Shown here one piece after another: positions 14,826 through 25,747 of a stretch of 64,000 nucleotides of DNA. The notes below the pieces were generated by a model. It was not told the DNA's origin. It saw only the letters and a list, made by a program, of their open reading frames with translations, and did no database searches. Position numbers and translations under genes: made by a program. The stretch is from Thermoplasmata archaeon. GTDB lineage: Archaea; Thermoplasmatota; Thermoplasmata; Methanomassiliicoccales; Methanomethylophilaceae. The stretch covers positions 90,446 through 154,445 of the forward strand of contig SUSU01000001.1 of assembly GCA_015063225.1 (NCBI GenBank), in the 5' to 3' direction. Numbering within the stretch: the first letter of the stretch is position 1; each line of letters begins with the position of its first letter.

Positions 14826-17030
14826 TTGGGACACTCCGTCTCGGGGATTCTTTTGAGGTCCGACGAGATTAAGGGGATATGCATCAAATCGGCGGATGAC
14901 ATGCTCGCCTACAGCGAGCTGTTCGGCGCGAGCGAGTCCGTCGTGAGGGTGAGGAGTTTCAAGCTGTCGGGGAGGGGGCACGTCCTGCTCCAGCTCGACA
15001 CCCCGGTTGCCGACCCGTCAGGCATCTATCTGAGGGTCAACGGGGATGTCTTCGAGGCATCCTGTTTCGAGATATCGTTCTGCGATCCGCGTTCGCGTAC
15101 GCTCGCGTTACGTTTCGTTCAGGGCCGCACCGACGTCATCTTCGCGGGCGAGCCCGAGGTGGAGGTCGTGGTGGACCTGAGTTTCCTGGTGAGGAAGGCC
15201 CGGGACTACTACGAGGAATTCGGAGACCTGGTGAGGTATCCCGATGAGACGCCGTCGTTCCTCCCGTCCGATTACCCCTTCCCGCAGGGCAGTGTGCCCA
15301 CCGAACAGCAGAGGGAGGCCGTGAGGACCATCCTGAACAGCAGGCTGTCTTACGTGTGGGGGGCGCCGGGCACGGGGAAGACGCAGCTCGTCCTCGCGAC
15401 ATGTATCATGGCCTATGTGAGGCGCGGGAGGAGGGTGGCGGTTATCGCCCCCACCAACAACTCCGTGGAGCAGGTCCTCCGCGGACTCGTCAGTGCGATA
15501 GCCGGGGATCCGGAGTATTCCCGGACAATCGACCTAAACAGGGACATAGCCCGTATCGGCACCCCCACCCCGGGATTCATCAGGGACTTCCCGGGGATGT
15601 GCGAACCCCGTGCGGCGGAGTCCGTATCGAAGAGGGAGGAGAAGGACAGGGAGGTCCTGGAGAACATAATCATGGAACGCCGGATGGACCGTGCCAGACC
15701 CCACATAATGGATTGTCTGGCTCATATGTCCGCGGATGACAAGAAGGCAGCTGAGGCAGCGGCCGCGAAGGCGACCGAGGCATTGGGGCATTCCTCTGTA
15801 TTCTACAACGTCAACGCATGTTTGTCCAAACTAGACGAGATGGGCCTGGAGTACTGCGCCCGCAGGATGTACGCCCGCGACCGTCCGCTGAAGGACATCG
15901 GATAGTACGAGGGATGCGACGACGATTCGATTCTCGACGCCATCTCTTCCATGGGGGAGACCCCCGAGGGGCATGCTGACCCGGAGGGATGCCTCATCGT
16001 GGCCTGCACCCCCCAGACCTACATGGCCCGTTTCGGTCCCAACGGTTCCGACGGACAGAAACCCGCCCTTGGCGTGGACCACATATTCGTCGACGAGGCG
16101 GGATACTGCAACTGCATGATGAGCCTCGCATTGCTGGCCAACGGGGTGCCGGTGACCATGCTCGGGGACCATAAGCAGCTCCCTCCCGTGTGTACGGTGG
16201 ACGAGGAGGACCTGCGCAGGTACATCTCCCGCGGAGGATTCATGAGGTACGGTTTCCTGTGGTCCCAGTCGGCACTGTTCACGGAGAGCGTACTAATCGG
16301 GGACCCGGATTCGGTGTCGAAGGCCTTCGTTGAGCTGTCCGACCCCGTCTTCGACCAGACGCTGAGGGTGGACCTGACGGATTCCCACCGTTTCGGATAC
16401 AATCTCGGGGAGGTCCTCGACCGCTATGTCTACAGGAACGGGGTGAAGGGTCTCGGCAGGGATCCGTTGGAGATCGTCTGCATAGATGCGGCATGCGGGC
16501 CGCGCGACAAACGTATCAACATACCCGAGGCTGAGGCGATAAGGGCGTATCTGGAATCGCATGTGGAGGGAGAGTACTGCATCCTCTCCCCTTACCGCAC
16601 GCAGATCGATGTCCTGAAGCAGGTCATGCCTAAGGAGGAGCAGAGGATCCTCACCGTCCACAAGTCTCAGGGGAGGGAGTGGGATACGGTCATCCTCAGC
16701 GTGCAGGACGGCGAAGGATGCAAGAGGGACGTGCCTCTCAGGTTCACATCCTCCAAATCCGACGTGGGGCTGAAGGTCATAAACACGGCCGTCTCCAGGG
16801 CCAAGAAAAGATTGGTCATTGTCTGTGATTTGAAGTTCTGGCTCAATCGCGGGGAGGAACTGATATGCGGTCTGATCCGTGAGGGGGGCGGCCGCAATTC
16901 CTTCGTCTGGAACGGCAGTTCACTGGAAAACGCCCCGATATTTCTAAATAAAACCGAGGGGGGTTACGGTACAGGCGAATCAAATGGCTACAAGCAAGAA
17001 GCAGAACACTGCCAAGAAGCACGCCCGTGA
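14826..17030 (+). CDS. UPF1-like SF1 helicase (AAA_11/AAA_12) with in-frame UAG codon (15903-15905), candidate pyrrolysine; about 734 aa if read through
   Basis: ORFs 14826-15905 and 15951-17030 are in the same frame. Walker A GAPGTGKTQ lies before the TAG; FVDEAGYCN, MLGDHKQLPPV and ILTVHKSQGREWDTVILS motifs lie after it. Start codon uncertain (TTG at 14852 is an alternative). Confidence 0.85.
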
Positions 17031-19864: not shown

Positions 19865-22800
19865 ATGACGAAGTTAGAATTGGATTTCGTGGAGAAGGTA
19901 AGCGTCATCGCTTGCGGCTCGAACAACAGCCTGGTGGTGTCCGCTTCCGTCGAATGCGGGTCCGAGGGATTGAGGGACATTTGCATCACCCTCACATCGG
20001 AACCGGCCTTCTTCTCTTGCCTGCCCGTGAGGTTCGAATCTTTCGAGGCGGGCACTGTCAATCAGATTACGGACAAGATAACCGTCCGTCCGGATCCGGA
20101 TTTCATCGCGTCTTTGGAGGAGAGCGTCCCTGCGACCGTCACGATGTCGCTCTAGGACCTCGAGGGGACCGTCATCGAACAGGTCTCCCGCGCCACCGAG
20201 ATCCTGCCGTTCAACTATTGGCCCGGGATGGACATGGTGGAGTCTGTGGCGGCGTTCGTCACCCCCAACGCGGACATCCTCGCGAGCGTCCGCACGGACG
20301 CCTCGGACGTCCTGTCGCGTCTCGGTCTCAGTCCCTCCCTCGGAGGGTATCAGGGGGATGTGAACAGCGTAACGGCCATCGGTGCTGCGGTGTTCACCGC
20401 CCTGCACCGCCGCAACATCACATACGTCAACCCTCCCGCAGGCTTCGAGGTCAGGGGACAGAGGGTCCGCCTCCCCGCCGAGGTTCTCGAGAAGTGCGAG
20501 GGAACATGCATAGACCTCGCGGTGCTCTACTGCGCCGTTCTCGAATCCATCGGCCTCAACACCGTCATATTCATCTCCAAGGGACATGCGTTCGCAGGCT
20601 TCTGGCTCATGGACGACCATGCCCCCGACATCGTCACTCCCGACCCGTCCAAGTTCTCCCGTTCCGTCCGCAACGGCGAGATGCGCGCCGTGGAATGCAC
20701 CCTCCTCACCAACGCCCACAGCGCTAATTTCGACGAGGCCTCCGATGCCGGTCTCGCCCATCTCGACGATCTCGATTCGTTCATCTGCGCCGTGGATATC
20801 GCGGCCGCCCGTTCGAGCATCCGCCCCATGCCCACCCGCACCCTCGTCGACGGGAGATGGGTGGTCGACAAGGAGCAGCTCGACGATGAGTCCATCCCCA
20901 AGTTCACCCCCGGGCAGATCTACGAGGACCCCGCCCTCCGCAACCTCACCAAGGTGGACCGCTGGAAGAGGGAACTCCTCGACATCGGGGTCAGGAACTC
21001 CCTCATCAACATGAAGGCCGGCACCAAGATCCTCCCCCTGATGATATCGGAAATCGCCGCCTTCGAGGACCTCTTCTCCACCGGGAAGGAGTTCTTCATA
21101 CATTCCAAGCCCCAGGACTGGACCGGTTCCCAGGCCTACGAGGCACGCCCCTTCGAATCAGAGTTCTACATCGCTAACTACGCGTCCGCCGCCCCCGCTG
21201 ACATCAAGCGCGGGTGGATCCGCACTCCGCTGACCGACGGTGAGACCGAGCAGTCCCTCCGTTCGATCTACCGCGGTGCGGTCAGGGAGCTGGAGGAATC
21301 GGGATGCAACTCGTCCTTCCTCGCGCTCGGCGTCCTCCGTTGGTACGAGGGGAAGGGCACCGTGCCCCACTTCGCCCCGCTCATCCTCCTGCCCGTGGAG
21401 GTGAAGAAGAGGAACACGGGATACAGCGTCCGCCCGCTCGACGAGGAGCCGGTGTTCAACGTCACTCTGACGGAGCATCTCCGCCAGAGTGACGTTGAAC
21501 ACCGGCTCCTCGTCACTCTGGCGGAGATGCTCCGTCAGGAGCACGAGATACAGATCCCCGGCACCGACCCCCTCCCCGCAGATGATAACGGCGTGAACGT
21601 GGACCAGATTCTGCAGACCGTCCGCCGTGCCGTCTCCGGGATGGAGGGATGGGAGGTGCTCAGCGGCGCCGCCCTCGGGATATTCACGTTCTCCCAATAC
21701 GCCATGTGGAAGGACCTCGACCGCAACATCGCCCGCCTCCGCGAGAGCGAGGTGGTCAGGTGCCTCGTCGACGGCACCGTCATGTCCGGCACTCAGGAGA
21801 TCGATGCATCCGCCGATCCCTACGGGTTATGTCTCACCGTGCCTGCGGACGGTTCGCAGATCAGGGCCGTCTCCGCCGCCAGGGACGGGCAGACCTTCGT
21901 CATGCACGGACCTCCGGGAACCGGTAAGAGCCAGACCATCACAAACATCATCACGGATTCGCTCTTCCGCGGGAAGACGGTGCTCTTCGTTGCGGAGAAG
22001 AGGGCTGCCCTCGAGGTCGTCCAGAAGAGGTTGGAGAAGGTGGGTGTCGGGAACCACTGCCTCGAACTCCACTCCAACAAGACCGAGAAGTCCAAGGTCG
22101 TCGAACAGCTGAAGGCCTCCCTCGAATCCTGCAAGGCCGTCGACTCCTCCAAGCTCGAGGAGCTCATGGCCGACATCGAGAAGGAGAAGGCGGTCCTCGA
22201 CTCCTATGTAGAGGAACTGCACGCCGTCCGTCCGTGGGGACTCAGCGCGTACGATGCGATTTCCCGCTACGAATCATATTCTTCAGAAGGGCTGCCCGAT
22301 GTGAGGATACCCGACAGGTACGTTTCGTCCCTCTCCCCCTCGTCCATCGGCGAGCTCGAGGATAGGACATCCCGTGCGGAACGCGTCTTCGCCTCGGTTT
22401 CGGATATCAGGTCTCCCGAGATGAATCATGTGAAGATGGATAACTCCGTCCTCGGCATCGATGACGACGTCCGTCTCGCCCTCGAGGAGACCCGCGCAGC
22501 CGCCGACAGGACCGAGAGGGCGATGGCGGTCATGAACTCCGTAGGACTCCCCGTGGACTTCACTGACCTCCACAAGGCCTGCGGTTTCGTCTCCAGCGTG
22601 CTGTCCGTTCCCCCGGATTCCGCCAACGACTGCAACATCAACGTCACGATCAGCCTCCTGGAATCTCTGCGCGCCCTGTCGGACAACGTCCGCTCCATGG
22701 CGTCCACTTTCCGCGAATCGGAGTTCGCCCTCCTGAGGGCCGACCTCTCCGACGTCGCCTCACGCGCCGAGACCCTCCTGAGGGACCTCTCCGCACACGG

Positions 22801-25747
22801 AGTGCGCATACCTGCCGCGGAATCCCTCGCCAGGGAGCTCCGCTCAGCCTCCAACGAGCAAGCCTCCGTCGCCGACGAGGCCATGAGGATCCTCGACAAG
22901 TGGAAGGGTTCCGTCTTCAGGGCGGATGCCTCCATAGGGATATCCAACATCTATTCCGACGCCGAGTCCGCCGGTTTCTTCTCCAAGAAGAAGGCCCGTT
23001 CGGCGTTCATGGATGCTGTGTCCGCGCACCTCCGCAACCCGAACGCACAGTTCGAGTCCCTTGCCGACACGGCGAAGCAGATGTCCCGCGTGGCGCCCGT
23101 CGTGGTCAACGCCTACGACTGTTTCTACCGTGCCGATGCCGCCGCCGCGGAACTCGAGACCGCAGGGCCCGAACTGGCGAAGATCCTCGCGGAGACCGCC
23201 AACAAGTTCGCCGAGTTCGGGGTGCCGGTTACCGACCTGCCCGCGGTCCGCGTCAAGATAGAGTCCTCGCGCGGACAGATCGAGGAGCTGCGCGGAGCGT
23301 CCGAATCATTCACCGAATCCCTCGGGAAGACGGTCTCCCTGCTCGCCTACGACGTGCCGGTCACGACGATAGCCGAGTTCCGCACCATGTATGACGGCCT
23401 CGTCCCCTACGAGGGACGCTTCTTCGACTGGGCCGGATGGAACGTCGTCCTCAGTTGGTTCGCCGCCCACGACCTCACCTCGGTCACCGACCTCATCGTC
23501 TCCGGTCCCCGTCCCGGCGTGGCGCCCGCGGCCGCCTCCAGGGGCATGTACCGCACGATGTTCAACCTCTGCCGCCAGCAGTCCGAGACCCTCAGGCTCT
23601 TCAGTTCCGACAGCTTCGAGAACAGCATCGCCCGCTTCCGCAAGCTCGATGAGAAGTACTCCGCATACAACCGCAACCTGCTGAAGTACAGATTGTACCA
23701 GAACACCCCGCGTGACCTCGATTCCTCGGTGAACGGTACGGAGGCGGCAATACTCTTCAAGGCGATCAACAGCTCCCGCATGCGCAAGTCCATCAGGCAG
23801 CTGCTGTCCGAGATACCGAACATCCTGCCTAGGGTGTGCCCCTGCCTCCTCATGTCCCCCCAGTCAGTGGCGCAGTACATCACCCACGACTTCCCCAAGT
23901 TCGACATCGTCATCTTCGACGAGTCCTCACAGATCGTCACCGCGAAGGCGGTCGGCGCTCTCGGGAGAGGGAAGTGCGCCGTCATCGCGGGCGACAACAA
24001 GCAGCTCCCGCCCACATCGTTCTTCCAGAAGAGGATAGAGGCGGACGAGGACGATTCCATCGACGTGGAATCCTTCCTGGATGACTGCCTGAGCATCAGG
24101 ATGCCGGAGACCTATCTCGAATGGCACTACCGCAGCCGCCACGAGTCCCTTATCGGGTTCTCTAACACCATGTTCTACGGGAGCCGCATGCTCACGTTCC
24201 CGTCCCCCAACGACAGCGCGACCCGGGTCTCCCTGGTCCGCGTGAAGGGTACGTACGAGAGGGGAAGGAGGACCAACCCCGTGGAGGCCCGTGCGGTAGC
24301 CGAGGATGTCCGCCGCCGCGTGCTCGATCCCGAACTGAGGAAGATGAGCATAGGCATCGTCGCGTTCTCGATCAGTCAGCAGAGCGCCATCGAGGACGAG
24401 CTCGACGAGATGGAGAAGAACGACAAGGAGTTCTCCGTCGCACTCGCGTCGATGCCCGAGCCCCTGTTCGTGAAGAACCTCGAGACCGTACAGGGGGATG
24501 AGAGGGATGTCATCCTCTTCTCCATCGGTTACGGCCCCGGCAAGGACGGCACCGTGTTCCAGAACTTCGGACCCGTCAACCGTGCGGGAGGAGGGAGGAG
24601 GCTGAACGTCGCCGTCTCCCGTTCGCGCATGGAGATGGTGGTGTTCTCCTCGATGACGCACAACGACGTCAAGGTGACCCCCGCATCCTCCTCGGGGGTG
24701 AGGGCGATGAAGGAGTTTCTCCGTTATGCCGCCAACGGCGGACGCTTCGGAGGCGAATCCGGGGACGACGAACCCCGTCCGGGCGAGACCGCCATCATGT
24801 CCGAACTGGCGGAGGCCCTCACCGGAAGAGGATACACCTGCCGCTTCGATGTGGGTACGTCCGAGTTCCGCGTGGACCTCGCGATAGCGGATCCCGACGA
24901 TCCCGACAGGTACATCCTCGGTATCCTCAGCGACGGCGAATCCTATAGAGCCAGCGTCAACACCCGCGACCGCGAGTACGCCCGTGCGGACGTGCTCAGG
25001 AACCTCGGATGGGCCATCATGCACGTGTGGTCCGTCGATTGGTACTTCAGGCGCGAGAGGGTCATCGACTCGGTCATCGCCGAGATAGAGCGTGCCCGTT
25101 CCGCCCGCGGCGTGCCCGAGGAGGAAGAGGAGGAACCGGAGATCGACGACGAGTCGTTCGGCACCTCGGACCTCCCTCCCGTGGAGAACCCCGAGTACAT
25201 GTCCTGCCGCGAGGACTACGTTCCCTGCAAGGACGCCGTCATCAACAACCTCACCGACCCCTACGGTCGCGCCGCGGTGAAGGCGGTCTGCGAGTTCATC
25301 ATCGCATCCGAATCCCCCATCGCGGAGGAGCACCTCGTCCGCACCTACTGCCGCCTCACGGGGATAAAGAGGCTGCTGGCGGACAAGCGCCGCCGCATCG
25401 TCGACCTCATGAGGATCGAGTTCGCCCCCAGGCTCCGCGGGAGCTTCGTCACCTATTGGTACGGGGGTATAGTCCCCGAGGGATTCCGCATGTACCGCGT
25501 CCCCGTGGTCCCCGAGGAATCGAGGGACATCGACTGCATCCCCATCGAGGAGATCCTGTCATGTATCGACGAGGCCGTGAAGAGGTACGGTTCCATAGAA
25601 CAGGATGCCGCACCGAAGGTCATCGCGGCGATGTTCGGGTTCTCTCGTACCGGCGACCGCATCCGCGAGATTGTCGGCGAGGCGTTCGAACAGGCGCTGA
25701 TGGACGGCATCGTGGTGCTCGAGAACGGAAGATACTCCGCACCCTGA
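19865..25747 (+). CDS. DUF4011-type SF1 helicase with REase/Vsr-like and DUF3320-like C-terminus (Hhe-like defence architecture), in-frame UAG codon (20153-20155); 1960 aa if read through
   Basis: ORFs 19817-20155 and 20228-25747 share one frame. The segment after the TAG but before the next ATG (TEILPFNYWPGMDMVESVAAFVTPN) resembles the conserved DUF4011-helicase N-terminal motif. Walker A HGPPGTGKSQTI; IFDESSQIV; VIAGDNKQLPPTSFF; LNVAVSRSR; C-terminal FRVDLAIADPDDPDRYILGILSDG...DREYARADVLRNLGWAIMHVWSVDW. Confidence 0.85.
21443..21538. repeat. Nested perfect inverted duplication inside helicase CDS
   Basis: 21467-21511 is the exact reverse complement of a 45-nt unit whose nt 1-24 lie at 21443-21466 and nt 19-45 at 21512-21538. 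Confidence 0.95.

Follow-up and report, generated by a model that had tools for sequence, protein, structure and literature searches.

Pyrrolysine (Pyl) was reportedly found in 2009 by Heinemann et al. in the tRNA-His guanylyltransferase of Methanosarcina; the evidence is said to have been experimental, and neutral evolution was offered as the explanation. The helicase-nuclease gene described here resembles that case in that Pyl would stand where homologues carry ordinary residues. It differs in organism and protein, and in that the helicase-nuclease is known from its sequence, whereas the guanylyltransferase case has experimental evidence. A report from 2025 is said to have proposed archaea in which every TAG codon is translated as Pyl; these are similar to the present genome (G000) in that TAG has been nearly lost as a stop codon. 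In the methylamine methyltransferases MtmB, MtbB and MttB, whose genes are present in G000, UAG is read by the same tRNA-Pyl. Their Pyl is catalytic and conserved, whereas column 97 of the helicase-nuclease is variable and not part of an active site.

In 'Ca. Methanomethylophilus alvus' 1.6% of the stop codons are TAG (Borrel et al. 2014, PMC4153887, Table 7). For this species sixteen Pyl proteins other than methyltransferases were predicted, Cas1 and a helicase among them, and it was argued that with a constitutive tRNA-Pyl an in-frame TAG becomes a stable mutation (PMC4153887). G000 is like 'Ca. M. alvus' in its order (Methanomassiliicoccales), in its 1.6% of TAG stops and in having single TAG codons in non-methyltransferase genes with sense-codon homologues. 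It is, however, another species, and the DUF4011/NF058533 helicase-nuclease is absent by name from the published list (PMC4153887). A TAG column shared across species, as in the neighbouring helicase here, is not described in that paper either. The UAG of the helicase-nuclease adds one more case to a phenomenon already known and fits the description of Borrel et al. The original prediction had considered Pyl in a large helicase-nuclease unusual; the protein does fall outside the methylamine methyltransferases, but beside the predictions of 2014 the finding is less surprising.

The gene lies in the window, the whole stretch of 64,000 nucleotides that was analysed. Its frame begins with ATG 19865, runs for 96 codons to TAG 20153-20155 and goes on for 1,863 stop-free codons to TGA 25745-25747. 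With UAG read as sense the product has 1,960 residues. Re-reading of the frame bore out the layout originally predicted (96 codons, TAG, more than 1,860 codons to TGA 25745), as well as the claim that the gene has no other lesion. The gene and its parts are as follows.

19865..25747, plus strand: DUF4011/SF1 helicase-nuclease gene of the NF058533 family (NF058533, PADLOC PDC-S37, G010 homologue)
19865..20203, plus strand: N-terminal beta-sandwich domain, aa 1-113, extending across the TAG (AlphaFold2 model, alignments)
20153..20155, plus strand: in-frame TAG, codon 97, proposed pyrrolysine codon (variable column in 90 homologues)
20222..20884, plus strand: transglutaminase/cysteine-protease-like domain, ~aa 120-340 (conserved columns, weak Foldseek matches)
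20972..21481, plus strand: DUF4011 domain, aa 370-539 (Pfam PF13195, E 3.9e-30)
21857..22075, plus strand: helicase domain 1, Walker A region, AAA_19 (Pfam)
23873..24652, plus strand: C-terminal part of AAA_11 and AAA_12, second half of the SF1 motor (Pfam)
24803..25087, plus strand: MTES_1575 restriction-endonuclease-like nuclease domain (PF18741, E 2.3e-23)
25256..25372, plus strand: DUF3320 domain (PF11784)

The 1,960-codon product matched the NCBIfam family NF058533 ('anti-phage protein ProA') with 1616 bits (cut-off 1500), and its DUF4011 domain, split SF1 motor, MTES_1575 nuclease and DUF3320 domain agree with membership in this family. PADLOC PDC-S37 matched with 1012 bits; this profile starts only at about residue 362. 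The likeness to NF058533, PDC-S37 and Hhe extends over the whole length and includes the same domain order. The nearest full-length relative in the genus, from genome G010, is 49% identical over residues 1-1957 and stop-free. A defence role of the protein is putative here and differs in this from the named defence families: no obvious defence island was seen around the gene in the window, where the neighbours are transporters and other helicases, and a literature search on 'ProA' and PDC-S37 in defence yielded nothing useful. In the domain at ~aa 120-340, which has no Pfam label, C215 and H241 are near-invariant and D260 is invariant; Foldseek gave weak matches to 3isr, a transglutaminase and PNGase.

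The original prediction had further stated that a DUF4011 motif follows the TAG and that the protein must begin upstream of it. The second part stood, residues 1-113 being a conserved domain of the family. The name of the motif did not, as Pfam DUF4011 comprises residues 370-539, wholly 3' of both the TAG and ATG 20228; the 'LPxxxWPG...AAFVxPN' motif lies between the beta-sandwich and the transglutaminase-like domain.

Residues 1-113 align to relatives in the order and to bacterial homologues. The beta-sandwich domain encoded by the 96 codons before the TAG is possessed by 90 homologues from archaea and bacteria, and the protein therefore spans TAG 20153. In these 90 homologues the reading frame continues through the site: the residues at column 97 include E, S, F, A, W, K, R, T and Y, with a stop in none, thus neither a TAG shared with G000 (0/90) nor a fixed residue. 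Varied and never a stop, the column is a permissive site. An AlphaFold2 model of residues 1-340, built on a 28-sequence alignment, had a mean pLDDT of 91 and placed residue 97 last in strand 88-97, ahead of the turn into strand 103-113 of the beta-sandwich. With a variable column at the tip of a beta-hairpin, Pyl at codon 97 looks tolerated rather than functional. Folding of the RNA 3' of UAG 20153 was no better than that of shuffles (z = 0.64), and no PYLIS-like recoding element was seen there.

A recent nonsense mutation truncating the protein after 96 residues, which would make the gene a young pseudogene, could also account for a TAG that is private among the homologues, all the more as accessory helicase-nucleases are dispensable. 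The coding statistics of the 5' segment point the same way: in a dicodon model the 96 codons scored 0.12 per codon, under the 5th percentile of gene starts (0.16), and their identity to homologues is ~25-30%. They nevertheless clearly outscored the other two frames. Against truncation, the 1,863 codons 3' of the TAG are free of lesions and show full coding bias, the genome encodes a charged amber suppressor, and genes in G000, a core phosphomannomutase among them, are often interrupted by TAG and rarely by TGA or TAA (see below). We regard a young pseudogene as quite improbable.

Termination at the UAG could also be followed by a restart at ATG 20228, the sole ATG, GTG or TTG from the TAG up to the downstream ORF. 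This codon is in frame, 24 codons 3' of the TAG, and would give a 1,839-residue protein devoid of the beta-sandwich domain; the late start of the PDC-S37 profile leaves room for shorter family members. However, the stretch ahead of 20228 (TATTGGCCCGGG) has nothing resembling a Shine-Dalgarno sequence, and a start at this place, right after the invariant W119-x-G121 motif, would lose the motif. Together with the neighbouring helicase, for which a restart fails (see below), this makes a restart very improbable.

Reading of the UAG as Pyl presupposes the Pyl machinery, and pylT, pylS, pylB, pylC and pylD, which were sought in the genome, were all present. The tRNA-Pyl gene with anticodon CTA (CUA) was located by ARAGORN on contig C16 (L041:8459-8529), directly 5' of pylS-B-C-D. 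The pylS product matched TIGR02367 with 275.7 bits (curated cut-off 178.15). A model of the PylS N-terminal domain found no match in the genome, which carries no information, since a shortened PylS has been reported for Methanomassiliicoccales. Three ORFs straight after pylS were assigned by order and sequence, not by HMM.

L041 9394-10458: pylB
L041 10455-11615: pylC
L041 11617-12438: pylD

Just upstream of the pyl genes on C16 lie two mtmB genes, each bearing its classical in-frame TAG, and mtbB (PF09505) and mttB (MTTB), each with an in-frame TAG, are on contig C12. All four were recovered in full length across the TAG. Synthetase, tRNA-Pyl(CUA), pylBCD and TAG-bearing methylamine methyltransferases together identify the organism as Pyl-decoding.

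Stop codon usage was determined by running a dicodon gene caller over 1.18 Mb of the 1.46 Mb draft genome (~81%; 39 contigs). TAG is not freely used as a stop: the 1,106 called genes end with TGA (90.7%), TAA (7.7%) or TAG (1.6%, 18/1,106). In G019, a relative without pylS above the cut-off, TAG ends 11.6% of 361 genes (p = 4e-14 for the difference from G000). About ten of the 18 TAG ends interrupt longer genes, one belongs to an RlmKL-like gene, two come from spurious calls where contigs end and five are others. These five genuine ends have the next TAA or TGA at most 21 codons away. With TAG rare as a terminator and back-up stops close, the code is, in this ~81% of the genome, near-dedicated to Pyl; given the ~5 of 1,106 genes left, TAG may still terminate some translation.

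The pattern of in-frame TAG interruptions exceeds chance because TAG-ended calls are far more often followed by a coding-like extension (10/18) than calls ended by TGA or TAA (123/1088; Fisher p = 9e-6). The extension counts take in neighbouring in-frame genes, and the TGA/TAA control is therefore conservative. Homology-based counting found one TGA inside alignments, as against the true TAGs. One further in-frame TAG candidate from tblastn, C30:72918, was rejected because it falls in a region full of stops ahead of a gene.

The ~10 interrupted genes comprise the two mtmB, mtbB, mttB, both helicases of the window and genes for a phosphomannomutase, CobN, a C5 DNA methylase and a DUF4443 protein. 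The TAG-interrupted genes outside methylamine metabolism and the window, with the RlmKL-like gene, are listed here.

L065 6028-7389 (G000:C26): core phosphomannomutase, in-frame TAG within Pfam domain I
L091 5498-9220: CobN
L080 6206-7342, minus strand: C5 DNA methylase
L086 230-874, minus strand: DUF4443 protein
L058 9230-10225, minus strand: RlmKL-like methyltransferase, 29 residues gained by reading through

All 14 genomes of the genus contain a single orthologue of the phosphomannomutase (57-66% identity) with no stop in the match; the in-frame TAG is limited to the G000 gene. The sole other homologue in G000 is a 24% paralogue. As the only close copy is interrupted by TAG, UAG decoding would be needed for the product. 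Under table 11 such genes are cut short or called in pieces; large defence-type helicases and this core sugar-phosphate mutase are among them.

An assembly or sequencing error at 20153 might be expected of a draft in 39 contigs. Errors would create TGA and TAA equally likely, yet the in-frame interruptions concentrate on TAG; the genome, moreover, decodes Pyl, and the TAG of the neighbouring helicase is seen in independent genomes. An error is thus extremely improbable.

The candidate Pyl codon of the original prediction is supported at the level of the genome by the presence of the pyl genes, the rarity of TAG stops, the domain that spans the TAG in homologues continuous through the site, the interruption of other genes by TAG and the TAG conserved in the neighbouring helicase (see below). 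We consider that UAG 20153 is very probably decoded as Pyl. As a sense codon it would be read by tRNA-Pyl(CUA) charged by PylS, with Pyl supplied by PylB, PylC and PylD, and the outcome would be a full-length helicase-nuclease with one Pyl at the beta-hairpin tip of its N-terminal domain. A point mutation most likely created the codon, in a lineage with TAG near-dedicated to Pyl, where such a mutation would be tolerated and not inactivate the gene. We infer that the cell places Pyl at this site, instead of inserting some other residue or terminating, and that its effect on the protein is near-neutral.

The neighbouring helicase carries the more unusual TAG of the two. ORFs 14826-15905 and 15951-17030 are a single SF1 helicase gene split by TAG 15903.

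14826..17030, plus strand: second SF1 helicase, 734 codons with its one in-frame TAG read as sense (TTG start uncertain)
15903..15905, plus strand: in-frame TAG, codon 360 (TAG at the same column in G001, G010 and G013)

The Walker A domain is encoded 5' of this TAG, and AAA_12 with motifs IV-VI, the C-terminal motor domain, 3' of it; a restart therefore cannot rescue this helicase. The G001 and G010 orthologues are 48-51% identical to the window helicase, and the G013 orthologue is a near-copy of that in G010. The orthologues share the context RDRPxxxI[GP]-TAG-Y. At the codon-360 column four of six genus members have TAG and the remaining two carry Arg and Glu; Glu also prevails in the sister genus, and TAG is one step away from its codon GAG. 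All genomes carrying the shared TAG have pylS. In the genus of this gut or rumen methanogen UAG serves, for practical purposes, as a codon for Pyl.

In the gene tree the six genus members formed one clade (100/100), and the TAG rows are explained by at most two changes; a single ancestral gain followed by loss is possible. The window helicase is separated from the other TAG carriers by path lengths of more than 1.5 changes per site, and over such distances a nonsense codon would not be expected to persist in otherwise intact genes. In an alignment of the three lineages 36% of all columns are identical (15% at the codon level). With so many columns equally conserved, the shared TAG proves tolerance, not a need for Pyl, and retention by itself is no proof of selection for Pyl. 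That Pyl has been kept in these helicases, outside methylamine metabolism, as a residue with a possible function is rather unlikely, though a real chance exists; if true, their translation would depend on the Pyl pathway. The shared TAG provides a test case for Pyl kept for reasons other than methyl transfer.

Two further members of the second-helicase family (L252, L257) have a TAG elsewhere in the gene. A giant ORF of 2,855 aa with two in-frame TAGs, extended past the first of them, was noticed in the first 200 kb of G010:C1 (~148152-160052).
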